From contig NZ_JASSOT010000054.1 of NCBI RefSeq assembly GCF_030238365.1, forward strand, positions 62,001 to 126,000: a stretch of DNA of 64,000 bases. The letters run 5' to 3'. Each line of letters begins with the position of its first letter. The stretch's first letter is position 1. This document shows positions 12,631 through 61,146 of the stretch, in pieces. The notes beneath the pieces were generated by a model. That model was not told the DNA's origin, did no database searches, and worked only from the letters and a program-made list of their open reading frames with translations. The translations under genes were made by a program, and so were the position numbers. The stretch comes from Lelliottia wanjuensis (GTDB lineage Bacteria > Pseudomonadota > Gammaproteobacteria > Enterobacterales > Enterobacteriaceae).

Positions 12631-12638
12631 CAACCACG

Positions 12639-46654: not shown

Positions 46655-47206
46655 TTAACCTTCGTTCTCAGCCAGCTCGCGCAGATACTGGAAAATCAGG
46701 CGCGCAGATTTCGGCGGCTTATTCCCTTCTTTCTCTTTCTTCGCGTTGCGGATAAGCGAACGTAACTGCTGACGGTCGGCGTCCGGCCACAGGTTCAACA
46801 CTTCTGCGACGGCGTCGTCGCCATTATCCACGAGACGGTCGCGGATCTGCTCCAGCTTATGGAACAGCGCAACCTGCTGGTTGTGGCGGTTCTTCAGCTT
46901 GTCCAGCGCCTGGCGAATCGGTTCTACGTCACGCTGGCGCAGCATTTTACCGATCAGCTGCAGCTGACGGCGACGGCCTTCTTTTTTGATGCGTTGGGCC
47001 AGTTCAATGGCTCCGCGCAAATCCGGGTCGAGCGGGAGTTTATCCAGCGCGTTTTTACCCAGCTCTACCATTTCCGCACCAAGTTGTTTTAACTCTTCGG
47101 CGTCGCGTTTAATTTCACTTTTACTGACCCAGATGATTTCATCATCTTCGTCTTCGATGTCATCACCGGGAACGTCGTCGAGCCAGTCTTCGGGCTGCTT
47201 AGTCAT
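46655..47206 (-). CDS. darP: ribosome-associated protein DarP (YjgA)
   Basis: 183 residues, the E. coli YjgA length. The acidic N-terminus ([18 protein letters not shown]) is followed by helical segments rich in Lys/Arg ([20 protein letters not shown]). It acts late in assembly of the 50S subunit and promotes peptidyl transferase centre maturation. The start at 47206 (MTKQPEDW) follows AAGGAG; the longer frame to 47254 is rejected. Divergent from pmbA. Confidence 0.95.
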
Positions 47207-47300
47207 GTCAGGCTCCTTAAAAAAGAGGCTAATGTTACCAGTTAAGACGCGCACTGAAAAACGGTTCTCTGTTAGACTTCAGATAACTCCCTCTTACAGT

Positions 47301-48653
47301 ATGGCATTTGCGATGAAAGTAACCTCACAAGTTGAAGCGCAGCGTAAGATTCTTGAAGAAGCGGTATCCACAGCACTGATGCTGGCCTCAGGCCAATCCG
47401 ATGGCGCAGAAGTGGCGGTCAGCAAGACCACGGGCATTAGCGTCAGCACCCGCTTTGGCGAAGTGGAAAACGTTGAATTTAACAGTGACGGCGCGCTGGG
47501 GATTACGGTTTATCACCAGAATCGCAAAGGCAGCGCCTCGTCGACAGATTTGAGCCCGGATGCGATCGCGCGCACCGTGCAGGCCGCGCTGGATATCGCG
47601 CGCTACACTTCGCCAGACCCGTATGCAGGCGTGGCGGACAAAGAGCTGCTGGCGTTTGACGCCCCGGATCTCGACCTGTTCCACCCGGCGGAAGTGTCTC
47701 CGGACGAAGCCATTGAGTACGCGGCTCGCGCAGAGCAAGCCTCGCTGAAAGCGGATAAACGCATCACCAATACCGAAGGCGGCAGCTTCAACAGCCACTA
47801 CGGGATCAAAGTGTTCGGCAACAGCCACGGCATGCTGCAGGGCTACTGCTCAACGCGTCACTCTCTCTCCAGCTGCGTGATCGCCGAAGAGAACGGCGAC
47901 ATGGAGCGCGATTACGCTTACACCATTGGCCGCGCGATGGGCGATTTGCAGTCCCCGGAGTGGGTCGGCGAAGAGTGCGCGAAACGCACCCTGTCCCGTT
48001 TGTCGCCGCGCAAACTCTCCACCATGAAAGCGCCGGTGATCTTCGCCAATGAAGTGGCGACAGGTCTGTTTGGTCACCTGGTGGGCGCGATTGCGGGTGG
48101 GGCGGTTTACCGTAAATCCACCTTCCTGCTCGATGCGCTGGGCACGCAAATTCTGCCAGAATGGCTGACCATCGAAGAACATCCGCACCTGCTGAAAGGC
48201 CTGGCGTCCACGCCGTTCGACAGCGAAGGCGTGCGCACGGAACGTCGCGACATCATCAAAGACGGCGTGCTGACCCAGTGGCTGCTGACCAACTACTCCG
48301 CACGTAAGCTGGGGCTGAAAAGCACCGGTCACGCGGGCGGGATCCACAACTGGCGCATTGAAGGCCAGGGGCTGAACTTTGAACAGATGCTCAAACAGAT
48401 GGGCACCGGCCTCGTGGTCACTGAGCTGATGGGCCAGGGCGTAAGCGGCATCACCGGGGATTACTCGCGCGGTGCGGCGGGCTTCTGGGTCGAAAACGGC
48501 GAAATTCAGTACCCGGTGAGCGAAATCACCATCGCCGGCAACTTAAAAGATATGTGGCGCAATATTGTGACCGTCGGTAACGATATTGAAACGCGCAGCA
48601 ATATACAGTGTGGTTCAGTGCTGTTACCGGAGATGAAAATCGCCGGTCAATAA
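47301..48653 (+). CDS. pmbA: metalloprotease PmbA/TldE
   Basis: 450 residues, TldE subunit of the TldD/TldE protease. Conserved segments include [51 protein letters not shown] and [14 protein letters not shown]. With TldD it matures microcin B17-type peptides and degrades unfolded peptides in the cytoplasm; TldE itself lacks the zinc site. The chosen start (MAFAMKV) matches E. coli MALAMKV; the frame is open far upstream over darP but without family similarity. cybC follows after 28 bp, possibly co-transcribed. Confidence 0.96.
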
Positions 48654-48681
48654 TCTTTCATAATAAAAAAGGAAGTGAGCA

Positions 48682-49068
48682 ATGTATAAAAGCCTGTTAG
48701 CCGTCGTCGTCGCGTCAACCCTGGTCATGAGTTCGGCAGCCTTTTCCGCCGATCTTGAAGACAACATGGACACCCTCAGCACCAATCTGAAAGTGGTGCA
48801 AAAAACGGATAATGCGACAGAAATGAAAGACGCATTAACCAAGATGCGTGCCGCCGCCCTCGACGCGCAAAAAGCAACGCCGCCGAAGCTGGAAAACGCC
48901 GCACCGGACAGCGCGGAGATGAAAGATTTCCGCCACGGTTTTGACGTGCTGGTCGGCCAGATTGACGGTGCGCTTAAGCTTGCCAACGAAGGCAAAGTGA
49001 AAGAGGCGCAGGCCGCCGCTGACGGGTTTGTCACCACGCGTAACGAGTACCACAAAAAGTACCGTTAA
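48682..49068 (+). CDS. cybC: soluble cytochrome b562
   Basis: 128 residues. A 22-residue signal peptide ([20 protein letters not shown], then FS) precedes a 106-residue four-helix bundle. The haem ligands are present: mature Met7 (ADLEDNM, residue 29 of the precursor) and mature His102 (NEYHKKYR, residue 124). It is a periplasmic electron carrier whose partner is unknown. Unlike the truncated K-12 allele often annotated, this gene is full length. Confidence 0.95.
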
Positions 49069-49102
49069 TTGGGTGCCTGAGCTGTACGCCCTTTCTCGTG
49101 AG

Positions 49103-49127
49103 GCGGAGGCATACTCCCTGCCTCCGC
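49103..49127 (-). terminator. hairpin at the 3' side of the hok-like gene
   Basis: A 9-bp perfect stem (GCGGAGGCA/TGCCTCCGC) with a seven-base loop, 12 bp after the toxin stop codon on the minus strand. No long T-run follows. It may be the structured 3' end common to hok mRNAs, or a shared end with cybC transcription. Confidence 0.45.
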
Positions 49128-49138
49128 ATGTCAGCTCC

Positions 49139-49294
49139 TTACTTTCCGGAGCGGCAGTCCATCCGCGCAGTTAACTCCAGCGAACCCTGATGAAAACGAA
49201 TTTCACACAGGGTTTTCCGGTTTACCAGAGATAAGATGATTATTGTCAAAGCAATAATCATCAGGGCCCTAATAATGGGTTTCTGCTGCTTCAT
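49139..49294 (-). CDS. Hok/Gef-family small membrane toxin
   Basis: 51 residues, shorter than usual annotation cut-offs. MKQQKPIIRALMIIALTIII starts a single membrane helix (~7-24). It is followed by VNRKTLCEIRFHQG, which matches the Hok/Gef signature TRKxLCExxxRxG including the conserved Cys30, and a tail ending CRSGK comparable to the ESGK end of Hok. A strong ribosome binding site (AAGGAGGCACCC) precedes the ATG. Overproduced Hok proteins depolarise the inner membrane. Expression in this family is normally blocked by an antisense Sok RNA; a candidate lies at 49325-49394. Confidence 0.8.
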   Translation of the reverse strand: MKQQKPIIRALMIIALTIIILSLVNRKTLCEIRFHQGSLELTARMDCRSGK

Positions 49295-49324
49295 GGGTGC
49301 CTCCTTGCTTTAAAAGCGGGTAAG

Positions 49325-49394
49325 GCACTAACTTCACGTGTGAGGACGTGTCGTTTAAGGCCCCGACCCTGGTTTTAAGTCAGTTAGGGGCTTT
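49325..49394 (+). ncRNA. possible Sok-like antisense RNA
   Basis: Region complementary to the hok leader. On the plus strand GCCCC (49360-49364) can pair with GGGGC (49387-49391) and is followed by TTT, which could be a short terminator. By position it is where Sok RNAs lie. No promoter was clearly identified and the boundaries are guesses. Confidence 0.3.
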
Positions 49395-49582
49395 CCACTT
49401 TCCGTCCCATGCATGAGACGGTCAGTCTCAAGCACCCACCCGCACTCTACCGAATCCCGATAAGAAAACCTTATCCACGTCACATTTCTACGAGCCTGCT
49501 CGTAAACTTTTTCGCTCTCATCCGTACCCTTTGACCACCGAATCGCGTGACATTCATCACGCAAATCCAGCTGATAATCCAT
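49355..49582 (-). CDS. small ORF of unknown function upstream of the hok-like gene
   Basis: 75 codons starting MDYQLDLRDECHAIRWSKGT and ending in GKPLTDLKPGSGP. A GGTG sequence three bases before the ATG is a weak ribosome binding site. No family is recognised. The peptide is polar and tryptophan-containing, with no signal or membrane segment. Its last codons overlap the putative antisense/leader region of the hok locus, so it may be a chance ORF; an upstream start at 49663 would run over the palindrome at 49626-49645. Confidence 0.25.
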   Translation of the reverse strand: MDYQLDLRDECHAIRWSKGTDESEKVYEQARRNVTWIRFSYRDSVECGWVLETDRLMHGTESGKPLTDLKPGSGP

Positions 49583-49625
49583 ATTCACCGCAATTATGTG
49601 GCACAGATCACTGGTGCCGCTCTCC

Positions 49626-49645
49626 TTTCCACTTCGAAGTGGAAA
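49626..49645. promoter_or_regulatory. perfect 20-bp palindrome upstream of the PRD/DUF cluster
   Basis: TTTCCACTTCGAAGTGGAAA is a perfect 20-bp palindrome, 87 bp upstream of the first gene of the cluster. No T-run follows on either strand, so it is not an intrinsic terminator. It is a likely operator for the MtlR/LicR-type regulator encoded at 56514-58424, or for another DNA-binding protein. Confidence 0.55.
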
Positions 49646-49731
49646 ACAACTCGCTACAAACAATTCACCGCCAGCGTTAGTTTTATCCCAGAGCCATTAA
49701 CGGGGTAAGACGAGTGATTAACGGAGCGGTA

Positions 49732-50052
49732 ATGAACGACGTTGGGGAACAGGCAGCGCAAACGGCACAGCTCGCCGACACCATGCTGGAGCAGGTTTTC
49801 ACGCTGCTTCGCCAGCACAACATCATTCCCAATGACGTCCAGGTGCAAATGCTGACTTCACACGTTCGCGCGATGGCGCACCGGTCCGTGACCGGCGAAC
49901 CGCTGCCGGACGTTGAAGCCGACCTGTTTGACGAAATTTCTGCAGATTCAATGCGACTTGCCCGCGAAGTAGTGGCGCAGTTCGGCAATCTTCCTGATGA
50001 AGAAGCCTGGCTGCTCTCCGTCCACTTCGAAGTCGCGAAAGACAACCTTTAA
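49732..50052 (+). CDS. single-PRD protein of the EF_0829/AHA_3910 type
   Basis: 106 residues consisting essentially of one PTS regulation domain. The paired histidines expected of a PRD are visible: H44 in MLTSHVRAMAHR and H98 in AWLLSVHFEVAK. There is no DNA- or RNA-binding domain. PRDs are phosphorylated by HPr or EII proteins, so a sensory or adaptor role linked to sugar transport is likely. ATG at 49732 is chosen because GGAG lies five bases upstream; GTG at 49714 is the alternative. First gene of a seven- to nine-gene cluster; the next gene follows after 11 bp. Confidence 0.83.
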   Translation: MNDVGEQAAQTAQLADTMLEQVFTLLRQHNIIPNDVQVQMLTSHVRAMAHRSVTGEPLPDVEADLFDEISADSMRLAREVVAQFGNLPDEEAWLLSVHFEVAKDNL

Positions 50053-50063
50053 GGAGCACTACC

Positions 50064-50426
50064 ATGGAACAAATTACTGTTGTGATTGGCGATCGTCTGG
50101 GCAAAGGCCAGAAAGTGGCTATCGGCGTTGAGAAAGCAGGCGGACGTGCGGTTGTGGTTCCGGGCGTGGCGGCGGACATGAAGCTGGGCGACGTGATGAA
50201 AGCGGAAAACGCTACCTTCGGCATCTCTTTCTGCGGCAGCGGCGGCGCAGGCGCTATCACCGCTCAGACCAAATACGGCTACAAAGCCAAATACGGCATG
50301 CGTTCGGTGGAAGAGGGCGTCACCGCCATCAACGAAGGCTGCAACGTGCTGGGCTTTGGCTTTATGGATAAAGAAGAGCTGGGCGAGCGTCTGGTCCAGG
50401 CGTGGCAGAAGAAGCACGGCGCCTGA
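50064..50426 (+). CDS. glycine-rich SFCGS-family protein (EF_0830/AHA_3911 type)
   Basis: 120 residues, soluble. The name-giving motif FGISFCGSGGAGAITAQT carries C57. A second Cys (C93, NEGCNVLGFGFM) and a basic tail with H118 are present. The family is conserved in a few Gram-positive and Gram-negative genomes next to DUF4310-4312 proteins and has no established function. The CGSG environment of C57 superficially resembles the phosphocysteine loop of PTS EIIB proteins; this is my inference, not a known assignment. AAGGAG ribosome binding site. Two bases separate its stop from the next ATG. Confidence 0.85.
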   Translation: MEQITVVIGDRLGKGQKVAIGVEKAGGRAVVVPGVAADMKLGDVMKAENATFGISFCGSGGAGAITAQTKYGYKAKYGMRSVEEGVTAINEGCNVLGFGFMDKEELGERLVQAWQKKHGA

Positions 50427-50428
50427 GC

Positions 50429-50728
50429 ATGAAAGAACAATTCACCACCACGGTGAGAGTGAAAGGCAAAGGCGAGATGAAATCCCGCGCCTTTGCCGAC
50501 GCGCTAAACCACGTTCAGGCCGCGGTGATGAAAGCATCACCGCATATCTTACTGCGTATTGAGCCACAGGATGTGCAGGTTGTTCAGGCGCAAGAAGCGG
50601 TGCGTAAAGAAGCCTTTCTGTACTTCTTTTTGCGCCGGGAAAGACGCACCTACAGCGTGGAGCTGGATGTGACCGTCAACGTGACCGCCATCAATCTCGA
50701 CAAGGTGGACTTTGTCACGCAACGCTGA
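50429..50728 (+). CDS. DUF4312-family protein (EF_0831/AHA_3912 type)
   Basis: 99 residues, soluble, mixed alpha/beta in appearance: MKEQFTTTVRVKGKGEMKSR, AFADALNHVQAAVMKAS, then strands to VDFVTQR. Histidines H28 and H39 are present. The function is unknown; the family is confined to this kind of cluster. The start at 50429 is preferred to a GTG at 50402 that would overlap the preceding gene by 25 bp. If the four-protein set is a permease, this would be the second soluble component. Confidence 0.83.
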   Translation: MKEQFTTTVRVKGKGEMKSRAFADALNHVQAAVMKASPHILLRIEPQDVQVVQAQEAVRKEAFLYFFLRRERRTYSVELDVTVNVTAINLDKVDFVTQR

Positions 50729-50750
50729 TTCTTACTAATAGGGCAGACTA

Positions 50751-51527
50751 ATGTTCCTGATAATTTTAATAAAATCGCTCATCATCGGCGGCCTGGTTGG
50801 CGTCGGTGTGGGCGCCGGAGCGGCACGCATGTTTCATGCGCCTACCACACAAGGTATGGGCGCGTTTCGTACGTTGGGGGAATTGAACTCCTGTGAAGGG
50901 GACCCTGCGTCTCACTTCTCCTTTGGTCTGGGGTTCTTCTTTAACGCCTGGGCATCGTCAGTGGCTGCGGGGGCATTCACTCAGGACGTTGACCATCGCA
51001 TCATCCCGAACTGGGGTGCGGCGGCGCTGATGCTGAAAAACCGCAACGTCGGCGAAACCCTGCACGACCCGCGCAAAATGGCGATTGCCTGCGGCATCAT
51101 CGGCATGTTCGTCGTCACCTTCCTTAACCTCACCGCGTCGTCCGTTCCGGCAGCCCTTCAGGTCACCGCCGTGAAGGTTCTGGTCCCGGCAGCCAACCTG
51201 CTGGTGAACACCGTGATGCCGGTGATCTTCTGGCTGGCGGCCATTGATGCGGGCAAAAAATCGGGCTTCTGGGCAACCGTGTTTGGCGGCGCAGCGCAGC
51301 TGATCATGGGTAACGCCGTACCGGGTCTGGTGCTGGGGATTCTGATCGGTAAAGGCGTCGAAGAGAGCGGCTGGAACCACGTCACCAAAGTGATGATGGT
51401 CGCCATCGTTCTGCTGTTCGTCCTGAGCGGCTTCTTCCGCGGCTTCGACATGAAGATGATCGAATCCTTCCATCTGACCGTGCCGAACTGGCTCGAACTG
51501 ATCCACAGCTCGCTCAGCGGCAAATAA
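50751..51527 (+). CDS. DUF4311 membrane protein (EF_0832/AHA_3913 type)
   Basis: 258 residues with about six hydrophobic segments, starting MFLIILIKSLIIGGLVGVGV. Polar, probably functional loops include FRTLGELNSCEGDPASHFSF and FTQDVDHRIIPNWGAAALML. Glycine-rich helices such as GNAVPGLVLGILIGKGVEES suggest a transporter. No known transporter family is recognised. It is followed 13 bp later by the DUF4310 partner. Size and order (a 26-kDa then a 22-kDa membrane protein after two small soluble proteins) parallel EIIC and EIID of mannose-type PTS. Confidence 0.85.
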   Translation: MFLIILIKSLIIGGLVGVGVGAGAARMFHAPTTQGMGAFRTLGELNSCEGDPASHFSFGLGFFFNAWASSVAAGAFTQDVDHRIIPNWGAAALMLKNRNVGETLHDPRKMAIACGIIGMFVVTFLNLTASSVPAALQVTAVKVLVPAANLLVNTVMPVIFWLAAIDAGKKSGFWATVFGGAAQLIMGNAVPGLVLGILIGKGVEESGWNHVTKVMMVAIVLLFVLSGFFRGFDMKMIESFHLTVPNWLELIHSSLSGK

Positions 51528-51540
51528 CAGGAGCCTCGAC

Positions 51541-52182
51541 ATGGAACAGAATAAAGGTTTTTGGTATGCCGACTGGTCGTTCCCGATCTTCGTTGGCCTG
51601 CTCTCCTCCGGCGTTTTCGCCGGGACGCACATGTACTACCTGTACGGCATCGGCGCATTTAACGAAGTGGCCTTCGTGGCGATGCTGAAAGCGGGCATCG
51701 ACACCGGCGTGTACGGCGCGGTGGCGGCGTTCGGCGCGAGCTTCCTGTTCGCCCGTATCATCGAAGGCTCCCTGGTGGGGATCCTGGATATCGGCGGTGC
51801 GATTCAGACCGGCGTCGGCCTCGGCGTTCCGGCGCTGTTGCTGGGCGCGGGGATTATGTTCCCGGTGACCAACTTTATCGCCTCGCTGGCGACCGGCCTG
51901 GTGATTGGTCTGGCGATTGGTTACGTCATCATTCTGGCGCGTAAATTCACCATCAATCAGAGCAACTCCACCTACGGGGCTGACGTGATGATGGGCGCGG
52001 GTAACGCCTCGGGCCGCTTCCTCGGGCCGTTGATTATCCTCAGCGCCATGACCGCCTCCATTCCGATTGGTATCGGCTCCCTGGTCGGCGCACTGCTGTT
52101 CTACCTCTGGCAGAAGCCGATTACCGGCGGCGCGATCCTCGGCGCCATGATTTTAGGCTCGCTGTTCCCGGTAGCCCTTTAA
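51541..52182 (+). CDS. DUF4310 membrane protein (EF_0833/AHA_3914 type)
   Basis: 213 residues with about five or six hydrophobic segments. Very glycine-rich repeats such as LDIGGAIQTGVGLGVPALLL and VMMGAGNASGRFLGP alternate with an N-terminal aromatic, soluble stretch (MEQNKGFWYADWSFP). The function is unknown; it always accompanies DUF4311 in the clusters I recall. Likely the second half of a membrane permease. GGAG ribosome binding site within 13 bp of the preceding gene. Confidence 0.85.
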   Translation: MEQNKGFWYADWSFPIFVGLLSSGVFAGTHMYYLYGIGAFNEVAFVAMLKAGIDTGVYGAVAAFGASFLFARIIEGSLVGILDIGGAIQTGVGLGVPALLLGAGIMFPVTNFIASLATGLVIGLAIGYVIILARKFTINQSNSTYGADVMMGAGNASGRFLGPLIILSAMTASIPIGIGSLVGALLFYLWQKPITGGAILGAMILGSLFPVAL

Positions 52183-52224
52183 CACCCACGGGCGCTCAGG
52201 CGCCCGTCCTTTCAGGAGATACGC

Positions 52225-53358
52225 ATGTTTGATTTACTCCTGCGCCGTGCGCGCCTGACCGACGATACCCTGACCGATATCGCCATCCAGGACGGCAAAA
52301 TCGCAGCGCTGGGCGAGATTTCCACTCCCGCACACAAAACCGTCGAGCTGAACGGCGAAGTCTTCGTCAGCGCCGGCTGGATTGATTCCCACGTTCACTG
52401 CTACCCGAACTCCCCGATCTACCACGATGAGCCCGACAGCGTCGGCATCGCCACGGGCGTCACCTCGGTGGTGGATGCAGGCAGCACCGGCGCGGATGAC
52501 GTGGACGACTTCTACGACATCACCCGCAAAGCGTCTACAGACGTTTTTGCCCTGCTGAATATCTCCCGCGTGGGGCTGATCGCCCAGAACGAACTGGCGA
52601 ACATGGCCAATATCGACGCCGACGCGGTGAAGCAGGCCGTTGCACGCCACCCGGATTTTATCGTTGGCCTGAAAGCGCGCATGAGCAGCAGCGTGGTCGG
52701 CGAAAACGGCATCACGCCGCTGGAGCGTGCGAAAACCATTCAGAAAGAGAACGGCGATCTGCCGCTGATGGTGCACATCGGTAACAACCCGCCGAATCTC
52801 GACGAGATTGCCGATCTGCTCAGCTCTGGCGACATCATCACTCACTGCTACAACGGCAAACCGAACCGCATTCTGACGCCGGAAGGGGAGCTGCGCGCTT
52901 CCGTCACCCGTGCGCTGAAGCGCGGCGTGCGTCTGGACGTCGGCCACGGGACCGCGAGCTTTAGCTTTGAAGTGGCGAAACGCGCCATCGCGATGGGCAT
53001 TCTGCCGCACACCATCAGCTCGGACATCTACTGCCGCAATCGCATCAACGGTCCGGTGGGCAGTCTGGCCAGCGTGATGTCGAAATTCCTCGCCATTGGC
53101 ATGTCGCTCCCGCAGGTGATCGAGTGTGTCACCGCCAACGCCGCCGATGGCCTGCGCCTGGCCCATAAAGGCCGCCTTCAGCCGGGTCTGGACGCCGACC
53201 TGACGCTCTTCACCGTCAAACGCCAGCCGACGCTGCTGGTGGATGCGGAAAACGACAGCCTGCAGGCTGAACATATTCTGGTGCCGCTTGCCGCGATCCG
53301 CGCGGGCAAGGGCTATATGACCGAACAAGGGAGTACGGAAAATGCCTTCGATTTATGA
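52225..53358 (+). CDS. amidohydrolase-superfamily metallohydrolase (cog3964, EF_0837 type)
   Basis: 377 residues, dihydroorotase-like fold. Metal ligands are apparent: H56-x-H58 in GWIDSHVHCYPN, carbamylated Lys candidate K150 (FIVGLKARMS), H184 (LMVHIGNNP), H207 (IITHCYNG) and catalytic D267 (TISSDIYC). This is a binuclear hydrolase with all residues intact. Members of this group have been reported to cleave acetylated alpha-hydroxy acids in vitro; the physiological substrate is unsettled. Next to a DgaE-like lyase, hydrolysis of an N-acyl group from an amino-aldonate is a reasonable inference. Overlaps dgaE by 17 bp. Confidence 0.88.
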   Translation: MFDLLLRRARLTDDTLTDIAIQDGKIAALGEISTPAHKTVELNGEVFVSAGWIDSHVHCYPNSPIYHDEPDSVGIATGVTSVVDAGSTGADDVDDFYDITRKASTDVFALLNISRVGLIAQNELANMANIDADAVKQAVARHPDFIVGLKARMSSSVVGENGITPLERAKTIQKENGDLPLMVHIGNNPPNLDEIADLLSSGDIITHCYNGKPNRILTPEGELRASVTRALKRGVRLDVGHGTASFSFEVAKRAIAMGILPHTISSDIYCRNRINGPVGSLASVMSKFLAIGMSLPQVIECVTANAADGLRLAHKGRLQPGLDADLTLFTVKRQPTLLVDAENDSLQAEHILVPLAAIRAGKGYMTEQGSTENAFDL

Positions 53359-54460
53359 GAAGTACAATTTAAAACAGGTGATCAACACGTCTGGCCGCAT
53401 GACCGCGCTCGGCGTATCCACCCCGCGCCCGGAAGTGGTGCAGGCGGCGATGGACGGCATGAATCAGTACTTCGAGATGAAAGATCTGGTGAATAAAACC
53501 GGGGAGTACATCGCGAAGCTGCTGGACGTGGAAGGGGCGACGGTGGTCTCCTGCGCGTCGGCGGGGATTGCCCAGTCCGTTGCGGCGGTGCTGGTGAAAG
53601 ACAGCGACTGGCTGCTGGAAAACCTGCACGTCACCCCGATCGAGAACAACGAAATCGTACTGCCAAAAGGCCACAACGTTAACTTCGGCGCGCCGGTCGG
53701 CACCATGGTGGCGCTCGGCGGCGGTAAACTGGTGGAAGCCGGGTACGCCAACGAATGCTCCGCCGATCAGCTGGCGGCAGCGATCACCCCGCGCACGGCG
53801 GCGATCCTCTACATCAAATCGCACCACTGCGTGCAGAAAAGCATGCTTAGCGTCGAGCAGGCGGCGGTGGTGGCGCGTAAACACGATCTTCCGCTGATCG
53901 TCGATGCGGCGGCGGAAGAAGATCTTCACACCTACTATCGCTCCGGCGCGGATCTGGTGATCTACAGCGGCGCGAAGGCGATCGAAGGGCCAACCAGCGG
54001 GCTGGTGATCGGCAAAACGCAGTACGTGGAATGGGTAAAACGCCAGACGGCGGGCATTGGCCGGGCGATGAAAGTGGGCAAAGAGGGGATTCTCGGCCTG
54101 ACCTGCGCCATCGAACACTACCTGACGGCGACCAAAGAGAGCGGTGCTGAGATGGTGGCGAAGATGACGCCATTTATCGATTCCCTGAATACCCTCAACG
54201 GCGTCACGGCCCGCGTGGTCTGGGACAGCGCCGGTCGCGATATCGCGCGCACCGAAATTAAATTTGACGAGGCCACCACCGGCGTCGGCACCGGCGAGCT
54301 GGTCAGTCAGCTCAAGCAGGGTGAATACGCGATCTATTTCCGTGGCTATAAGGCCAACGAAGGGATTATCGAAGCGGACGTACGCAGCGTCAGCGCCGAT
54401 CAGCTGAACATTGTTTATCGCCGCATCCGCGAAGTCTTAAGCCAGGAGAAATCAGCATGA
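53342..54460 (+). CDS. dgaE: DgaE-family PLP-dependent ammonia lyase (D-glucosaminate-6-phosphate type)
   Basis: 372 residues, SelA-related fold-type I PLP enzyme. The Schiff-base lysine is K212 in VIYSGAKAIEGPTSG, and the cofactor-binding aspartate is D188 (LPLIVDAAAEED). In Salmonella, DgaE converts 2-amino-2-deoxy-D-gluconate 6-phosphate to 2-keto-3-deoxygluconate 6-phosphate and ammonia. This homologue sits between an amidohydrolase and a KDGP aldolase, so the same chemistry is likely. Starts inside the amidohydrolase gene and overlaps dgaF by 4 bp (ATGA): translation is tightly coupled. Confidence 0.87.
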   Translation: MPSIYEKYNLKQVINTSGRMTALGVSTPRPEVVQAAMDGMNQYFEMKDLVNKTGEYIAKLLDVEGATVVSCASAGIAQSVAAVLVKDSDWLLENLHVTPIENNEIVLPKGHNVNFGAPVGTMVALGGGKLVEAGYANECSADQLAAAITPRTAAILYIKSHHCVQKSMLSVEQAAVVARKHDLPLIVDAAAEEDLHTYYRSGADLVIYSGAKAIEGPTSGLVIGKTQYVEWVKRQTAGIGRAMKVGKEGILGLTCAIEHYLTATKESGAEMVAKMTPFIDSLNTLNGVTARVVWDSAGRDIARTEIKFDEATTGVGTGELVSQLKQGEYAIYFRGYKANEGIIEADVRSVSADQLNIVYRRIREVLSQEKSA

Positions 54461-55197
54461 AACTGACCCCCAATTTTTATCGTGACCGCGTGTGCCTGAA
54501 CGTGCTGGCGGGTTCCAAAGCCAACGCCAGCGCGATCTATGAGGCCGCAGAAGGTCATGTCCTGGTGGGCGTGCTCTCCAAAAACTATCCTGATGTGGCG
54601 AGCGCCGTGGCGGATATGCGCGAATACGCCGCGCTTATCGACAACGCGCTCTCCGTCGGGCTGGGCGCGGGCGATCCGAACCAGTCGGCGATGGTGAGCG
54701 AGATTTCTCGCCAGGTGCAGCCGCAGCACGTTAACCAGGTGTTCACTGGCGTCGCGACCAGCCGCGCGCTGCTCGGGCAGAACGCGTCCGTGGTCAACGG
54801 TCTGGTCTCGCCAACGGGCACCGTCGGGATGGTCAAAATCTCCACCGGCCCGCTGAGCAGCAAAGCGCCGGACGGCATTGTTCCGGTGGAAACCGCGATT
54901 GCCCTGCTGAAAGATTTCGGCGGCAGCTCAATCAAATACTTCCCGATGGGCGGCCTTGAGTGTCGTGACGAATACAAAGCCGTCGCCGAAGCCTGCGCCC
55001 GCCACGATTTCTGGCTGGAGCCGACCGGCGGTATCGACCTGGAGAACTTCGAGGAGATCCTGCAGATCGCCCTGGATGCGGGCGTGAGCAAAATCATTCC
55101 GCATATTTATAGCTCGATTATCGACAAAGCCAGCGGCGACACCCGTCCTGAGGACGTGCGTAAGTTGCTGGAGATGACGAAGAAGTTGGTTCAGTAG
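54457..55197 (+). CDS. dgaF: DgaF-family 2-dehydro-3-deoxy-phosphogluconate aldolase
   Basis: 246 residues, EF_0839/AHA_3917 type. The lysine of GGSSIKYFPMGGLE (K160) is a candidate Schiff-base residue, with GFG-like phosphate loops (EPTGGIDLENF) near the C-terminus. It would split KDGP to pyruvate and glyceraldehyde 3-phosphate, feeding glycolysis. The ATGA overlap with dgaE supports a shared pathway. Last gene before a repeat-rich gap; no clear intrinsic terminator with T-run is seen apart from the repeat hairpins. Confidence 0.87.
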   Translation: MKLTPNFYRDRVCLNVLAGSKANASAIYEAAEGHVLVGVLSKNYPDVASAVADMREYAALIDNALSVGLGAGDPNQSAMVSEISRQVQPQHVNQVFTGVATSRALLGQNASVVNGLVSPTGTVGMVKISTGPLSSKAPDGIVPVETAIALLKDFGGSSIKYFPMGGLECRDEYKAVAEACARHDFWLEPTGGIDLENFEEILQIALDAGVSKIIPHIYSSIIDKASGDTRPEDVRKLLEMTKKLVQ

Positions 55198-55203
55198 TTT
55201 TTC

Positions 55204-55312
55204 CCCTCACCCTAACCCTCTCCCACAGGGAGAGGGGACTAAAACCGCCCTCACCCTGTGAGAGTGGGGACTCTTATCTCCCTCTCCCTGTGGGAGAGGG
55301 CCGGGGTGAGGG
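55204..55312. repeat. inverted repeat element (CCCTCACCC...GGGAGAGGG family), copy A
   Basis: The left arm (55204-55236) and right arm (55280-55312) are reverse complements with three differences, and each arm is itself a hairpin (CCCTCTCCC-ACA-GGGAGAGGG). A partial degenerate copy sits between. The same element is found at 58913-58990. It is a repetitive extragenic family distinct from REP, common in Enterobacter-like genomes as far as I know. Confidence 0.85.
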
Positions 55313-55348
55313 CATCAAACCGCACCATAGCCAAAGCCAGGAGCCACC

Positions 55349-56494
55349 ATGCACCCCCATCACCTGCTCGTCGCTTCACTCTCCCTGCTCGCAACCGCCG
55401 CCGTTGCTCAGCCCCAGTACGCCTGGGTCGGCACCTACAACCCGAACGGCGAAGGGCTGTACCGTTTTACCGTCGATCCGCAAACCGGCGCGCTCGGTGA
55501 GAAAAAGCTCGTCAGCCCACTGCCCAACGCCGCGCAGCTCACCGTCTCACACGACGGCAAAACCCTGTATCTGGCAAGCGAAGCCGAGAAAGGCGCAATC
55601 CAGGCGCTGCGCATCGGTGCCGACGGTGAACTCACCGAGCTGAATCAGGTAGCGTCTGGCGGAGCGGGGCCGGTGTATGTGTCCCTCACGCCAGAGGGGC
55701 GTCATCTGCTGGTGGCGAACTACGTCAGCGGCTCGATTGCGGTACTGCCGGTGAAGGCGGACGGCAGCCTGGGCGAGGCGACGGACACCCATCAGGATCA
55801 GGGTGAACCCGGCGCAGCGAAACCGGAAGCAGCAGTGGAGGGGAGTTTCGCTGCGAGCGATCACAACGGCCCGCACGCCCATATGATCGCCGCCGATCCG
55901 AGCGGGAAATTCGTCTTCTCGACGGATCTCGGCCTGGATCGCATCTATCAGTATCGCTTTGACGATCAAAGCGGAAAACTCACGCCAAACGATCCGCCGT
56001 TTATCAGCGCCTCGTCGAAAGGCGCGGGGCCGCGGCATTTCGTCTTTACGCCGAAAGGCGATGGTCTGTGGCTGATCAACGAAGAGTCCTCAACCCTGAC
56101 CTGGTATGCGCTGGATAAGACTTCCGGCACCCTGAAAGCGGGCAGAACGATCTCGTCGCTGCCGAAGGAGTACAAAGGCACCAGTTTTGCCGCCGGGCTG
56201 GCGTTGAGCGCCGACGGCCAGCAGCTGTATGTCGCGAACCGTTTGCATAACAGCATCGCGCACTTTAGGGTAACGGCGGACGGCACGCTGGTGCATCAGG
56301 ACGATGTCTGGACGCGCGGGGATTATCCGCGCTCCCTGACCCTGGATCAGCAGGGCCGCTGGCTGTACGTTATGAATCAGCGCAGCGATAACATCACCCG
56401 TTTTCGCGTTGCGCCCGATGGCACACTAAGCTTTGAACCGGACTACACGCCGGTCGGCAGTCCATCACAGATGGTCATTTCAATCGGGCCATGA
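55349..56494 (+). CDS. exported lactonase-family beta-propeller protein
   Basis: 381 residues. An N-terminal signal peptide (MHPHHLLVASLSLLATAAVA, cleaved before QPQY) precedes a seven-bladed beta-propeller of the 6-phosphogluconolactonase (YkgB/YbhE-like) family. Family landmarks are SGGAGPVYVSLTPEGRHLLV, DHNGPHAHMIAADPSGKFVF and GAGPRHFVFTPKGDGLW. Because it is exported, it would act on an extracytoplasmic lactone rather than on 6-phosphogluconolactone. It follows dgaF by 151 bp across the repeat element and precedes the regulator by 19 bp. An aldonolactone substrate would fit the cluster, but activity is unproven. Confidence 0.83.
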   Translation: MHPHHLLVASLSLLATAAVAQPQYAWVGTYNPNGEGLYRFTVDPQTGALGEKKLVSPLPNAAQLTVSHDGKTLYLASEAEKGAIQALRIGADGELTELNQVASGGAGPVYVSLTPEGRHLLVANYVSGSIAVLPVKADGSLGEATDTHQDQGEPGAAKPEAAVEGSFAASDHNGPHAHMIAADPSGKFVFSTDLGLDRIYQYRFDDQSGKLTPNDPPFISASSKGAGPRHFVFTPKGDGLWLINEESSTLTWYALDKTSGTLKAGRTISSLPKEYKGTSFAAGLALSADGQQLYVANRLHNSIAHFRVTADGTLVHQDDVWTRGDYPRSLTLDQQGRWLYVMNQRSDNITRFRVAPDGTLSFEPDYTPVGSPSQMVISIGP

Positions 56495-56513
56495 GCCGTA
56501 AGAGGACAAAGAC

Positions 56514-58424
56514 GTGCGATTTCCGAACCAACGTTTAGCGCAACTGTTTGATCTGTTGCAAAACGAGACGCTGCCGCAGGATGAACTGGCGCAGCGGTTA
56601 TCGGTATCCACGCGTACCGTACGGGCGGATATCACCGCCCTGAACGCGCTGCTGGCAGGCCACGGCGCGCAGTTTATTCTCAGCCGCGGCAACGGCTATC
56701 AGCTGAAGATTGACGATGCCGCGCGCTATCAGTCGCTGCAGGACTCCCGTCCGCGCGCGCTGCGTATTCCGCGCACCGGGCAGGAGCGCGTCCATTATCT
56801 GGTGGTGCGGTTTCTCACCTCCGCCTTTTCCCTGAAGCTGGAAGATTTGGCTGATGAATGGTTCGTCAGCCGCGCCACCCTGCAAAACGACATGGTGGAA
56901 GTGCGGGAGTGGTTCCAGCGCTACAGCCTGACGCTGGAAACTCGCCCGCGTCACGGCATGAAACTGTTCGGCAGCGAGATGTCGATTCGCGCCTGCCTGA
57001 CGGACTTGCTGTGGGAACTGGCGCAGCAGGACAGCCTTAATCCGCTGGTGACGGAGGTCGCCCTGAATGCGGGCGTGCCGGAGCAGCTGGTGGGGGTACT
57101 GCACGACACGCTGACGCGCCATCACATTCGTCTCACGGATGAGGGCGAGCTGTTTGTGCGGCTCTACTGCGCGGTCTCCGTGAGGCGCATCAGCGAAGGC
57201 TATCCGCTGCCGGAATTTAACGCCGAAGATGTGGAAGAGAACGTGCACGATGCCGCGCGGGATATTGCCGCCGCCATCGCCCGGCTGGCGGACAAAGTGC
57301 TCTCGCCGTCGGAGGAGAACTGGCTCTGTGTGCACATCGCCGCGCGCCAGATTCAGGAGATCGCCCCGAGCGCGATTAACGCCGACGATGACGAAGCGCT
57401 GGTGAACTACATCCTGCGCTACATCAACACCCACTATAACTACAACCTGCTGAACGACGCCCAGCTGCACGCGGATTTGCTGACGCATATAAAAACCATG
57501 ATCACTCGCGTGCGTTACCAAATCATGATCCCCAACCCGCTGCTGGATAACATCAAACAGCACTATCCGATGGCGTGGGACATGACCCTGGCGGCGGTCT
57601 CCGGCTGGGGGAAATACACTCCTTACGTCATCAGCGAAAACGAGATTGGTTTTCTGGTGCTGCATATCGGCGTCGGGCTGGAGCGGCACTATAACGTGGG
57701 CTATCAGCGCCAGCCGCGCGTGCTGCTGGTGTGCGATGCCGGGAACGCGATGGCGCGCATGATTGAAGCGGTTCTAGCGCGTAAATACCCGCAGGTGGAA
57801 GTGACGCGCACCGTCACGTTGCGTGAGTACGAACTGGCGGAAAGTATTAGCGAGGATTTTGTCATTTCCACCGCGCGCATCAGCGAAAAAGCCAAACCGG
57901 TGGTGCAGATCGCCCCGTTCCCGACCGACTATCAGCTGGAGCAGATCGGCAAGCTGGTGCTGGTGGATCGCACCCGTCCGTGGATGCTGGAAAAGTACTT
58001 CGACGCCGACCATTTCCGCGTGATCGATTCAGGCATGGATCAGCAAACCCTGTTCCAGGAACTGTGCGGACAGCTGCGTCAGGAAGGGTTTGTCGACGCG
58101 GAGTTTCTTGATTCGGTGGTGGAACGTGAAGCCATCGTCAGCACCATGCTCGGCGACGGCATCGCGCTGCCGCACTCCCTTGGTCTGCTGGCGCAAAAAA
58201 CCGTGGTCTACACCGTGCTGGCACCCCAGGGCATCAAGTGGGGCGACGAAACGGCGCACGTCATTTTCCTGCTGGCGATCAGTAAAAGCGAGTACGAAGA
58301 GGCGATGGCGATCTACGATATTTTCGTCACCTTCCTGCGCGAACGGGCCATGACGCGGCTGTGCAACTGCCGCGATTTTACGGAATTCAAAGCGGTGGCG
58401 ATGGAGAGTTTGAGCCGGTTTTAA
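56514..58424 (+). CDS. MtlR/LicR-type PRD-EIIB-EIIA transcriptional activator
   Basis: 636 residues. Two N-terminal DNA-binding HTH domains (~5-50, ELAQRLSVSTRTVRADITAL; ~85-150, LEDLADEWFVSRATLQND), PRD1 (~180-285, H274 in CVHIAARQ), PRD2 (~290-395, H384 in LVLHIGVGLE), a Gat-type EIIB domain (C407 in VLLVCDAGNAMA) and a mannitol/fructose-type EIIA domain (H554 in GIALPHSLG). HTHs rather than a CAT RNA-binding domain make it a DNA-binding activator, not an antiterminator. Start is GTG with AGAGGA. It should read PTS phosphorylation state and control the cluster. The 3' end overlaps convergent nrdG by 3 bp. Confidence 0.9.
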   Translation: MRFPNQRLAQLFDLLQNETLPQDELAQRLSVSTRTVRADITALNALLAGHGAQFILSRGNGYQLKIDDAARYQSLQDSRPRALRIPRTGQERVHYLVVRFLTSAFSLKLEDLADEWFVSRATLQNDMVEVREWFQRYSLTLETRPRHGMKLFGSEMSIRACLTDLLWELAQQDSLNPLVTEVALNAGVPEQLVGVLHDTLTRHHIRLTDEGELFVRLYCAVSVRRISEGYPLPEFNAEDVEENVHDAARDIAAAIARLADKVLSPSEENWLCVHIAARQIQEIAPSAINADDDEALVNYILRYINTHYNYNLLNDAQLHADLLTHIKTMITRVRYQIMIPNPLLDNIKQHYPMAWDMTLAAVSGWGKYTPYVISENEIGFLVLHIGVGLERHYNVGYQRQPRVLLVCDAGNAMARMIEAVLARKYPQVEVTRTVTLREYELAESISEDFVISTARISEKAKPVVQIAPFPTDYQLEQIGKLVLVDRTRPWMLEKYFDADHFRVIDSGMDQQTLFQELCGQLRQEGFVDAEFLDSVVEREAIVSTMLGDGIALPHSLGLLAQKTVVYTVLAPQGIKWGDETAHVIFLLAISKSEYEEAMAIYDIFVTFLRERAMTRLCNCRDFTEFKAVAMESLSRF

Positions 58425-58885
58425 CGCAAATGATGCACAACCTGGTTGCTGCTGCCCCGCCAGATCAGAGCCGGGTCTTTCAAATCCTGCACAAATTTGC
58501 CGTCGACCAGGACATTAATCAGGTCGACGATTTCTCTCTGCGCATCGTTCAGTTCATCCAGCTTGTAGCCGGTCCATACCCAGATATCTTTCCCCGCGCA
58601 CTCTTTGTGAATGCGCTTCACCAGCCTGAGAATATGCGGCACGTTCTGCGGATGCAGCGGGTCGCCGCCGGAGAGGGAGATCCCCTGGCGCGGGATACGC
58701 GTATCGTTCAGATCGCGGATGATCCGGTTTTCCATTTCGTCGTCAAACGGCAGGCCCGAGTTCAGCCGCCAGGTGCTTTTGTTGTAGCAGCCAGGGCATT
58801 CGTGAACGCAGCCTGAAACGAACAGGGTGCAGCGGGTGCCTGGGCCATTGACGATGTCGACGGGGTAATACTGGTGGTATCTCAT
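58421..58885 (-). CDS. nrdG: anaerobic ribonucleoside-triphosphate reductase activating protein NrdG
   Basis: 154 residues, radical SAM. The iron-sulfur cysteines are C26, C30 and C33 in FVSGCVHECPGCYNKSTW, the CxxxCxxC motif. It uses S-adenosylmethionine and a reduced 4Fe-4S cluster to create the glycyl radical on NrdD under anaerobic conditions. Close to E. coli NrdG throughout. It follows nrdD with a 122-bp gap filled by a repeat element. In E. coli the gap is short, so this insertion may affect coupling. Confidence 0.97.
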   Translation of the reverse strand: MRYHQYYPVDIVNGPGTRCTLFVSGCVHECPGCYNKSTWRLNSGLPFDDEMENRIIRDLNDTRIPRQGISLSGGDPLHPQNVPHILRLVKRIHKECAGKDIWVWTGYKLDELNDAQREIVDLINVLVDGKFVQDLKDPALIWRGSSNQVVHHLR

Positions 58886-58912
58886 TTCTGTTTCCCAATG
58901 AGCACGCTGATG

Positions 58913-58990
58913 CCCTCACCCCGGCCCTCTCCCACAGGGAGAGGGAGTTCAAGTCCCCTCTCCCTTGAGGGAGAGGGTTAGGGTGAGGGG
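58913..58990. repeat. inverted repeat element (CCCTCACCC...GGGAGAGGG family), copy B
   Basis: The left arm 58913-58945 is almost the same sequence as an arm of copy A at 55204-55312. The right arm 58955-58990 is its imperfect inverse. It occupies most of the nrdD-nrdG intercistronic region. Confidence 0.85.
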
Positions 58991-59007
58991 GAAAATCCCG
59001 CAGAAGA

Positions 59008-61146
59008 TTACCCGATCTGCCCATTCCCCAGATGCTTCACGCGACGCTTCACTTCTTCCTGCTTACCGGCGTTAAACGGACGGGCGTCCGGGCTGCCAAG
59101 ATATCCGCACACGCGGCGAGTCACGGAGACGCGGGCCGCATCGTGGTTACCGCATTTCGGGCAGGTAAAGCCTTTGCTGGTGCACTCAAACTCACCGGTA
59201 AAGCCGCACTCGTAGCACTCGTCGATCGGCGTGTTGGTCCCGTAATACGGCACGTGCTGATAGCTGTAATCCCACACGTCTTCCAGCGCTTTCAGGTTGT
59301 GCTGAATGTTCGGGTACTCGCCGTAACAGATGAAGCCACCGTTAGCGACCGGCGGATAGGCCGCTTCAAAGTCAATCTTGTCGTACGGGTTTACCTTTTT
59401 CTCCACGTCGAGGTGGAAGCTGTTGGTGTAGTAGCCTTTGTCGGTCACGCCGTTCACCACGCCAAACTCGGCGGTATCGAGACGGCAGAAGCGGTCGCAG
59501 AGGTTTTCACTCGGCGTGCTGTAGAGGCTAAAGCCATAGCCGGTTTCGTCTTTCCACAGATCCACCGCATCGCGCAGACGCTGAACGATAGCGATACCCT
59601 TCTCGCGCAGGGCTTCACTGTCATACATATGCTGATTGCCAAACAGGGCGTTGATGGTTTCGTGGATGCCGATATACCCCAGGGAGATCGATGCGCGGCC
59701 GTTCTTGAAGATTTCAGACACGTCGTCGTCCGCTTTCAGGCGCACGCCGCAGGCTCCTTCCATATACAGAATCGGTGCCACGCGGGCTTTGACTCCTTCC
59801 AGACGGGCGATACGGGTCATGAGTGCTTTACGCGCCAGCTGCAGACGTTCGTCGAGCAGCGTCCAGAATGCCGCTTCGTCACCCTTCGCTTCCAGCGCGA
59901 TGCGCGGCAGGTTAAGGCTGATCACGCCGATGTTGTTGCGGCCTTCATGGATCTGCTCACCGTGTTCATTTTCATACACGCCGAGGAAGCTGCGGCAGCC
60001 CATTGGGGTCTTGAACGAACCGGTGACTTTCACCACCTGGTCGTAGTTCAGGATGTCCGGATACATGCGCTTGCTCGCGCATTCCAGCGCCAGCTGTTTG
60101 ATGTCGTAGTTCGCATCGCCAAACTTGTGGTTCAGGCCATCGCGAATGGCGAAGACCAGTTTCGGGAACACCGCGGTTTTACGGTTTTTGCCGAGGCCCG
60201 AAATGCGGTTGCGCAGAATCGACTGCTGAATTAGACGCGATTCCCAGCTGGTCCCCAGACCAAAACCGAAGGTGACAAACGGCGTCTGGCCGTTGGCGGT
60301 GTGCAGGGTGTTCACTTCGTATTCGAGGGACTGGAACGCATCGTAGCACTCTTTCTCGGTGCGGGAGTGCGCGTAACCGTCGGCATCAGGAATGTTCCAC
60401 TCCTGCGCCACTTTACGATGCTTGTTGAAGCTCTCGGTGACGAACGGGGCCAGCACTTCGTCGATACGGTTGATGGTGGTCCCGCCGTAAATATGGCTGG
60501 CGACCTGGGCGATAATCTGCGCCGTTACCGCCGTGGCGGTGGAGATAGATTTTGGCGGCTCAATCTCGGCGTTACCCATTTTAAAGCCGTGGGTCAGCAT
60601 GCCTTTCAGGTCGATCAGCATACAGTTGAACATCGGGAAGAACGGCGAGTAGTCGAGATCGTGGTAGTGGATCTCACCGCGTTCGTGCGCCTGCACCACG
60701 TCGCGCGGCAGCAGGTGCTGACGGGCATAGTGCTTGGCGACGATACCGGCCAGCAGGTCGCGCTGGGTCGGGATCACTTTGCTGTCTTTGTTGGCGTTTT
60801 CATTGAGCAGCGCCGAGTTGGTCTGCTCGACCAGGCCGCGAATCTCCTGATTCAGGCGACCGCGTTTTTCACGCTGGATGTCACGGTCGTGACGGTACTC
60901 AATGTAGGCGCGCGCCAGCTGCTTGTACGGACCGGACATCAGCTGGTTTTCCACCGCAGTCTGGATCTCGTTGATATCCACCTGGCTGCGTTCATTCATC
61001 TGGCTACAGACAATTTCTGCGACGGTGGCGCAGTAATCTGCGTCATCGACTCCCGCTGCTTTAGCTGCACGCAGAATGGCTTCTTTGATGCGCTCTGACT
61101 TAAACGGCACTTTACAGCCATCTCGTTTCATCACATGCGGTGTCAT
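59008..61146 (-). CDS. nrdD: anaerobic ribonucleoside-triphosphate reductase NrdD
   Basis: 712 residues, E. coli length. An N-terminal ATP-cone (~1-95, VMKRDGCKVPFKSERIKEAI) provides allosteric control. The ten-stranded barrel holds the active site. The C-terminus has a zinc-binding four-Cys site (CYECG...CPKCG) and the glycyl radical loop RRVCGYLGSPDARPF. It reduces ribonucleoside triphosphates to deoxy forms with formate when oxygen is absent. The start at 61146 (GGAG five bases upstream) agrees with E. coli; a GTG two codons earlier lacks spacing. The promoter region shows NrdR- and FNR-like boxes. Confidence 0.97.
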   Translation of the reverse strand: MTPHVMKRDGCKVPFKSERIKEAILRAAKAAGVDDADYCATVAEIVCSQMNERSQVDINEIQTAVENQLMSGPYKQLARAYIEYRHDRDIQREKRGRLNQEIRGLVEQTNSALLNENANKDSKVIPTQRDLLAGIVAKHYARQHLLPRDVVQAHERGEIHYHDLDYSPFFPMFNCMLIDLKGMLTHGFKMGNAEIEPPKSISTATAVTAQIIAQVASHIYGGTTINRIDEVLAPFVTESFNKHRKVAQEWNIPDADGYAHSRTEKECYDAFQSLEYEVNTLHTANGQTPFVTFGFGLGTSWESRLIQQSILRNRISGLGKNRKTAVFPKLVFAIRDGLNHKFGDANYDIKQLALECASKRMYPDILNYDQVVKVTGSFKTPMGCRSFLGVYENEHGEQIHEGRNNIGVISLNLPRIALEAKGDEAAFWTLLDERLQLARKALMTRIARLEGVKARVAPILYMEGACGVRLKADDDVSEIFKNGRASISLGYIGIHETINALFGNQHMYDSEALREKGIAIVQRLRDAVDLWKDETGYGFSLYSTPSENLCDRFCRLDTAEFGVVNGVTDKGYYTNSFHLDVEKKVNPYDKIDFEAAYPPVANGGFICYGEYPNIQHNLKALEDVWDYSYQHVPYYGTNTPIDECYECGFTGEFECTSKGFTCPKCGNHDAARVSVTRRVCGYLGSPDARPFNAGKQEEVKRRVKHLGNGQIG

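Follow-up and report, generated by a model that had tools for sequence, protein, structure and literature searches.

An eight-gene operon of Lelliottia wanjuensis with four uncharacterised protein families as a candidate phosphotransferase-linked permease for an amino-aldonate

Gene organization and distribution of the operon

The stretch of DNA analysed here, called the window, comprises 64,000 nt of Lelliottia wanjuensis (contig NZ_JASSOT010000054.1, positions 62,001 to 126,000). Positions 49732-55197 of the window carried an operon of eight intact genes encoding, in this order, a small PRD protein, an SFCGS protein, a DUF4312 protein, two membrane proteins of the DUF4311 and DUF4310 families, an amidohydrolase, a DgaE-like ammonia lyase dependent on pyridoxal phosphate (PLP), and a KDGP aldolase. 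The SFCGS, DUF4312, DUF4311, and DUF4310 proteins, referred to as the quartet, are probably an uncharacterised permease for an amino-aldonate or acylamino-aldonate that is linked to the phosphotransferase system (PTS). The gaps between successive genes were 11, 2, 22, 13, 42, -17, and -4 nt, and all eight genes matched their respective NCBIfam models above cut-off (TIGR03577-TIGR03583 and TIGR01437). All genes named in a preliminary description of this DNA were found where it had placed them, and its start at 49732 takes in the small PRD gene. That description had begun the gene series with two small soluble proteins; their sizes were correct, but they are encoded by the second and third genes of the operon, since the small PRD protein comes first. 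Two further genes on the same strand, absent from the description, lay 3' of the operon and encoded a lactonase and a PRD regulator with regions resembling the PTS Enzyme II (EII) components EIIB and EIIA. The ten features are as follows.

ATG 49732 or GTG 49714 to 50052, + strand: small stand-alone PRD protein (TIGR03582, 137.8 bits)
50064..50426, + strand: SFCGS protein, 120 aa (PF14272, E=7.4e-60; TIGR03577), with invariant C57 and D10
ATG 50429 to 50728, + strand: DUF4312 protein, 99 aa (PF14189, E=1.2e-33; TIGR03578), with variable H28 and H39
50751..51527, + strand: DUF4311 membrane protein, 258 aa (PF14188, E=2.4e-121; TIGR03580)
51541..52182, + strand: DUF4310 membrane protein, 213 aa (PF14187, E=5.6e-108; TIGR03579), with invariant H30
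52225..53358, + strand: amidohydrolase/deacetylase of the EF_0837 type (TIGR03583; close solved relative 8wzy)
53342..54460, + strand: DgaE-like PLP ammonia lyase (TIGR01437), with conserved R303, R334, and R348
54457..55197, + strand: KDGP aldolase, DgaF-like (PF07071, TIGR03581; solved relatives 3m0z, 3lm7, and 3nzr)
55349..56494, + strand: seven-bladed lactonase (PF10282), with a signal-peptide-like N-terminus as judged by eye
56514..58424, + strand: PRD regulator with a helix-turn-helix (HTH) region, PRD domains, an EIIB-like region (by eye), and an EIIA2 domain (PF00359, E=1.5e-18)

Because only the best 80 of 487 DUF4311 relatives were kept (89-100% identity in DUF4311), the 80 Enterobacterales loci compared here are close kin; L011, L014, L064, and L077 were shorter than the others. 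The eight genes were collinear and on one strand in all 80 loci. The PRD regulator was found in 79, the exception being L064, which ends with its contig, and a lactonase homologue in 46. The closest named record came from Lelliottia nimipressuralis, with a DUF4311 100% identical to that of the window. In a phylum-wide draw of 398 genomes, DUF4311 occurred in 12, all from the family of the window, and the KDGP aldolase occurred in the identical 12 genomes; in a class-wide draw of 369 genomes, DUF4311 was matched in the L. wanjuensis genome only. Scans of viral contigs with DUF4311, DUF4310, and SFCGS gave no relatives.

Six records of a plasmid collection contained DUF4311. A Bartonella plasmid (L095) carried the complete operon with its regulator (DUF4311 73% identical). 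In Enterococcus faecalis (L096; 66.5% identical), the quartet and the three enzymes were joined in one cluster by a lactose-type EIIC, a PfkB kinase, and a MupG-type glycosidase; the KDGP aldolase of that record (L096:18501-19225) matched in two pieces, the first a 163-aa open reading frame (ORF), and looks interrupted there. An Aeromonas record (L098, Aeromonas caviae KAM479) had lost the middle of the operon: through a deletion, the first part of DUF4310 ran into the last part of the KDGP aldolase gene at 10663-11274, and the amidohydrolase and lyase were looked for in this record and not found. The quartet operon also adjoined nitrogen-PTS genes, namely rapZ, ptsN, and rpoN by eye, in genome G374 (L166, about 9838-13353) and in Aeromonas (L098, 13591-16694), with npr, again by eye, among these neighbours in G374. 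An E. coli match to PF14188 was suspected at first to be YhfT, and weak second matches in genomes G199 and G258 (L093 and L094) may be similar; the L093 protein reads as a DjlA-like J-domain protein, which makes a chance match of membrane segments likely.

The degradative enzymes and the kinase pattern around them

The dga operon of Salmonella acts on D-glucosaminate with a mannose-family PTS, DgaE, and DgaF, and in the manually docked model of PMC9529869 the phosphate of the substrate lies at R301, R332, and R346 of the Salmonella lyase (DGL). In the alignment, these residues corresponded to R303, R334, and R348 of the window lyase, which were kept in all 83 rows (identical sequences being counted separately) and in seven aldolase-linked lyase rows as well; the Niallia lyase was read by eye. 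H162 was likewise kept in 83 of the 83 rows and H161 in 82, and the window lyase shared 41-60% identity with the other aligned aldolase-linked members. Because the arginine triad is conserved, the docking model favours a phosphorylated substrate for the DgaE-like lyase, in line with the earlier expectation that this enzyme should need one. Two lyase homologues linked to ABC transporters (34% identity) had Cys in place of the third arginine and retained the other two; no KDGP aldolase was annotated in the stretches of their loci shown. A Phyllobacterium plasmid (L176:5304-9191) combined an amidohydrolase of the same family, RidA, a DgaE-like enzyme, and an ABC transporter; the part of the plasmid that was displayed had no annotated KDGP aldolase, and this set is possibly a version of the pathway without phosphorylation.

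On NF047797, the equivalog model of DgaE, the window lyase obtained 384.7 bits, under the cut-off of 600, whereas the lyase of a dga operon in genome G166 (L164) scored 710.9 bits. This difference points to a substrate that is probably a relative of glucosaminate, and, judged from sequence, the window lyase is probably an enzyme of the DgaE family with another substrate. The KDGP aldolase scored 395.5 bits on NF047796, above the cut-off of 300. The amidohydrolase suggests that the substrate is N-acylated; the EF_0837 family are deacetylases by their model and Pfam names. The exported-looking lactonase suggests an aldonolactone outside the cytoplasm. As to E. faecalis, PMC7701990 suggests amino-sugar metabolism for EF0839 and EF2975 and leaves phosphorylation of the intermediate open for another aldolase route of that organism, PMC7396535 names the pair dgaEF, and PMC2912369 reports induction in urine of the promoter of ef_0839 or ef_2975.

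The statement that the operon lacks a kinase gene was examined with five kinases of aldolase clusters, which were searched against the ORFs of 181 loci so that only relatives of these five were sought. It held in the 80 Enterobacterales loci, operon and flanks, none of which contained such a relative; a kinase encoded elsewhere in the genome is possible. Four PfkB cluster kinases formed one family (36-75% identical) and, outside the closest pair, scored 222-260 bits with one another. Nine of the 15 plasmid records with the aldolase were inspected, together with L164 and L165 from genomes. Those left out were two Klebsiella records, Bartonella HY761, and one record each of L. paracasei, Listeria, and Metabacillus (the last a partial match); both of these Klebsiella records match DUF4311, and Bartonella HY761 matches DUF4311 and a fusion of HPr and Enzyme I (EI).

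A true dga operon was present in G166, where Pfam recognised EIIA-man, EIIB, EIIC, and EIID followed by DgaE and DgaF, and the same gene set was seen by eye in G370; both genomes carry the quartet operon too. The dga-like gene order ascribed to the operon is thereby supported. No relative of the five cluster kinases was found in the mannose-PTS versions (L164; L165 by eye; L. paracasei L174 by annotation) or in the whole Bartonella plasmid. In the version with a gluconate:H+ symporter (Priestia, L178), a PfkB kinase stood beside the core, and a PfkB kinase was also present in the versions with a lactose-type EIIC and MupG (Clostridioides difficile, L177, and Niallia, L181, where MupG was named by eye). 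Among distant aldolase relatives (about 31% identity), those of Listeria accompanied an ascorbate-type PTS with no kinase annotated beside the core, and that of Alicyclobacillus an ABC transporter with a xylulokinase-type gene. Regulators differed as well: the quartet was accompanied by PRD-type proteins, dga by an activator that looked LevR-like by eye, and the kinase-bearing Priestia, C. difficile, and Niallia clusters by GntR (Niallia by eye). PMC4896439 describes a GntP-type cassette of B. cereus ('system III'), proposed for a gluconate derivative such as D-glucosaminate. In the clusters compared, the kinase tracked the transporter around the aldolase core, a pattern that fits delivery of a phosphorylated substrate by the quartet.

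The quartet proteins and the link to the phosphotransferase system

The preliminary description had proposed C57 of SFCGS and H28 and H39 of DUF4312 as phospho-acceptors, and all three residues sit at the positions given. C57 and D10 of SFCGS were invariant in 96 of 96 rows. C57 falls, however, where RpiB/LacAB isomerases have a Cys, although the similarity is weak. SFCGS matched PF02502 with E=0.011 and 16.2 bits (cut-off 24.7) and TIGR02133 with E=0.002, also below the cut-off, and with E up to 10 allowed, PF02502 was reported for three of three SFCGS members from distant hosts. In hhalign, RpiB ranked first of 15 profiles against SFCGS, at a probability of only 32% (E=0.00048). When 8153 ORFs were searched, the RpiB profile returned 31 RpiB-type proteins and then SFCGS from rank 32 (E=0.0081), and the SFCGS profile returned 91 SFCGS proteins, then RpiB at ranks 92-96 and YhfU at ranks 97-98; with the YhfU profile, RpiB proteins ranked directly behind YhfU itself. 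The window SFCGS scored 11.3 bits, which was reached by 3 of 20000 shuffles, and C57 aligned with the Cys of the RpiB CGTG loop, the catalytic Cys of RpiB. As a control, a lactose/cellobiose EIIB (PF02302; a minus-strand ORF near the quartet locus L168 of genome G346) obtained 14.1 bits on the RpiB profile, equal to SFCGS, and its Cys loop also aligned with the RpiB Cys loop; the SFCGS profile gave the same EIIB only 0.2 bits, at rank 764. When solved structures were searched with SFCGS by phmmer (E up to 10), no RpiB appeared, and the one match was a nitrogenase at chance level. The AlphaFold2 model of SFCGS had a predicted local distance difference test (pLDDT) score of 64.9 and a predicted template modelling (pTM) score of 0.69, being fair at residues 1-58 and about 98-120 and poor at 59-97, and showed a beta-alpha-beta-alpha-beta order ending just before C57. 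These comparisons make an RpiB-type fold of SFCGS likely, not certain; in view of the L168 control, a remote relationship to EIIB is conceivable. C57 may accordingly serve in catalysis, in binding, or as a phospho-acceptor. A second RpiB-like protein of L. wanjuensis (L135, G000:C22:287367-287693) matched positions 3-105 only of the LacAB_rpiB profile.

Among 96 rows of DUF4312, 76 carried H28 and 81 carried H39; the replacements included Q, R, and K. The proposal of a phospho-acceptor in this protein fails, because neither His nor Cys was invariant at any position of the 96 rows. A dodecin-like nature of DUF4312 was rejected (hhalign 1.2%). The idea that the quartet fills the IIA, IIB, IIC, and IID slots one to one was not sustained either: 54 member scans (3 SFCGS, 40 DUF4312, 8 DUF4311, and 3 DUF4310) against Pfam up to E=10, with filters that drop most matches above about 0.1, reported no PTS EII family, and the EII proteins of the true dga operon were readily recognised by the same profile library. 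H29, H55, H82, H105, and H252 of DUF4311 were invariant. A simple hydrophobicity scan, which is not a topology prediction, gave five strong segments each in DUF4311 and DUF4310. The AlphaFold2 model of DUF4311 (pLDDT 54.1) was too poor for use, probably because the sequences in the input alignment were 89-97% identical. Relationships of DUF4311 or DUF4310 to YhfT or to one another were rejected (hhalign at most about 1%), as was a profile match of DUF4310 to the KDGP aldolase (99%), an artefact of the fused Aeromonas row that dropped to 0.19% once this row was removed. A match to DUF2232, reported for eight of eight DUF4311 members, stayed below the cut-off of that family (E=0.0058 at best) and was not used.

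PRD domains are phosphorylated on His residues such as H50 of the small PRD protein (numbered from GTG 49714), which was invariant in 96 of 96 rows together with R57; this protein matched E. coli YhfY in hhalign at 88.7% (E=2.6e-6). In the PRD regulator, H325, H384, and C407 (the last in the EIIB-like region by eye) were invariant, and H554 of the EIIA2 domain was kept in 99% of 82 rows. On the Bartonella plasmid, a 671-aa HPr-EI fusion annotated as ptsP lay directly 3' of the operon and regulator (L095:8047-10062), with a PTS-HPr domain (E=2.4e-23) and an EI match of 511 bits to TIGR01417. A relative in Caballeronia (55% identical), annotated as a somewhat longer protein, adjoined a glucose PTS permease gene. 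No EII gene was annotated on the whole plasmid, whose gene table is incomplete by its own statement; the plasmid also carries a type VI secretion cluster. With two PRD proteins and an HPr-EI fusion beside the Bartonella copy, the PTS link that had been drawn earlier from a PRD protein is real.

The operon of the window is flanked by cybC-like and nrdG/nrdD-like genes, as judged by eye. A 40-base sequence with a GC-rich inverted repeat occurred in one copy per strand on either side of the lactonase-regulator pair, at about 55277-55316 and about 58905-58945. An Rfam scan of 47000-60000 gave no match at the gathering threshold. Promoter-like sites numbered 3 against a shuffle mean of 3.5, i.e. 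no excess, and terminator-like sites 17 against a shuffle mean of 9.7 (sd 3.3).

Proposed pathway, alternatives, and known systems

The gene content and order, the co-occurrence, the conserved residues, the lack of a cluster-kinase relative, the covariation of kinase and transporter in the clusters compared, and the HPr-EI fusion are observations; transport, the substrate and its acyl group, phosphorylation in transit, and all phospho-acceptors are inferred. The operon would take up and degrade a 2-amino-aldonic acid, probably N-acylated. The membrane permease would consist of DUF4311 and DUF4310, partnered in the cytoplasm by SFCGS and DUF4312, and uptake would be coupled to phosphorylation through the PTS, from phosphoenolpyruvate (PEP) by way of EI and HPr, so that the substrate enters as a 6-phosphate. 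The amidohydrolase would strip the acyl group, the DgaE-like lyase would eliminate ammonia to give 2-keto-3-deoxy-6-phosphogluconate, and the aldolase would yield pyruvate and glyceraldehyde-3-phosphate. The apparently exported lactonase, where it occurs (about half of the enterobacterial loci), may open a lactone first, and the PRD regulator and small PRD protein would switch the operon by the phosphorylation state of the PTS. That the quartet phosphorylates its substrate during transport stands at roughly even odds, and the full scheme of PTS-coupled phosphorylating uptake and degradation of a 2-amino-aldonic acid, although our preferred reading, is tentative and falls somewhat short of an even chance. 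The glucose PTS gene beside the Caballeronia relative adds a little to it.

Several observations weigh against this scheme or speak for an ordinary non-phosphorylating permease with unusual soluble subunits, an unlinked kinase, and a PTS that acts on the PRD proteins only, a reading that is doubtful and yet has a substantial chance of being correct. No EII family was reported for any quartet protein, and the conserved PTS-type residues lie in the PRD proteins (H50; H325, H384, C407, and H554), with none in DUF4312; PTS dependence could thus be purely regulatory through the two PRD proteins, and the Bartonella HPr-EI could serve the PRD regulator only. Profile searches place SFCGS closer to isomerases than to EIIB. 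The Priestia DgaE retains the same arginines despite its symporter, so the triad shows that the lyase sees phosphate, not where the phosphate comes from; together with B. cereus 'system III' of PMC4896439, Priestia also provides a symporter-and-kinase version of the enzyme core. The absence of a kinase from the operon leaves room for one encoded elsewhere, and the L. wanjuensis genome contained three PfkB-family matches, the best at 26 bits to the E. faecalis kinase and, in phmmer, up to 50.9 bits against the Priestia kinase. The kinase-transporter pattern comprises few independent lineages, and E. faecalis, where the quartet, EIIC-MupG, and the PfkB kinase occur together, fits it only if the kinase belongs to the route through EIIC and MupG. 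The EIIB control and the own-genome kinases at 51 bits each weaken one argument a little. On the other side, the cluster kinases score 222-260 bits mutually and at most 51 bits with proteins of this genome, none was found in the 80 loci, and the Bartonella plasmid has HPr-EI beside the operon and no relative of the cluster kinases.

The quartet may even represent a new structural class of PTS-dependent phosphorylating permease, in which an RpiB-like SFCGS with C57 replaces EIIB and YhfY-YhfU-YhfT of E. coli would form a second branch. We regard this extension as unlikely, although the EIIB that matches the RpiB profile at its Cys loop leaves room for a link between SFCGS and EIIB. The weak but reciprocal likeness of SFCGS to RpiB could instead mean that the quartet is no permease at all, with SFCGS as an RpiB/LacAB-like isomerase or ligand sensor, the membrane pair in efflux or signalling, and uptake located elsewhere; this is improbable, since the quartet occupies the transporter position of dga operons and the core genes in the window include no further transporter gene. 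Least probable, with only a slight chance, is that the quartet is a highly diverged member of a known EII family, such as the mannose family, whose sequence signal has been lost. The operon position and the count of two soluble and two membrane proteins are as in dgaABCD, and the RpiB profile that matches SFCGS scores the lactose/cellobiose EIIB equally at the Cys loop. Against this, Pfam reported no PTS family up to E=10, no EIIA histidine is conserved, the SFCGS profile gives the L168 EIIB next to no score, and the AlphaFold2 model of DUF4311 is poor.

Proposals of a new type of PTS permease are rare. Should the quartet phosphorylate its substrate, it would be an EII for which sequence searches show no kinship with the known families, common among Enterobacteriaceae and also carried by an enterococcus; even without phosphorylation, it would be an unrecognised transporter, probably for an amino sugar acid, and four uncharacterised families would be tied to a concrete pathway. 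A literature search on the quartet families found no paper on their function. The same families are already recognised as conserved hypotheticals in the NCBIfam set EF_0829 to EF_0839 / AHA_3910 to AHA_3917 (TIGR03577-TIGR03583); the model names seen state neither a function nor a role in transport and mention no connection to RpiB or the PTS, and for the PRD and deacetylase models the name is that of the domain.

The operon resembles the dga operon in the families and order of the lyase and aldolase, in transporter genes upstream of the enzymes, in a PTS-type regulator, and in having no kinase relative that we found. It differs in that its transporter families are unrelated to those of dga by sequence search, in the added amidohydrolase and often a lactonase, and in an HTH-PRD-EIIA regulator with a small PRD protein in place of the LevR-like activator (by eye). 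With the Gram-positive GntP or EIIC-MupG versions (Priestia, B. cereus system III, C. difficile, and Niallia) it shares the amidohydrolase, lyase, and aldolase in a row, whereas those versions have a known transporter, a PfkB kinase, and a GntR regulator instead of the quartet. The yhfS-yhfZ genes of E. coli likewise combine a small PRD protein (YhfY), a small RpiB-like protein (YhfU, PF02502 E=0.065), and a membrane protein (YhfT), and no kinase is annotated among them, although the adjoining frl operon has one; the enzymes differ, and YhfT has no detectable profile similarity to DUF4311 or DUF4310. RpiB/LacAB and YhfU were the best non-self matches of the SFCGS profile, at low scores of 13-15 bits. 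SFCGS, with 120 aa, is encoded with membrane proteins, and RpiB has about 150 aa; the two share a Cys-Gly-(Ser/Thr)-Gly loop at the same place of the alignment, where YhfU (DUF2620) has Cys-Asn-Thr-Gly.

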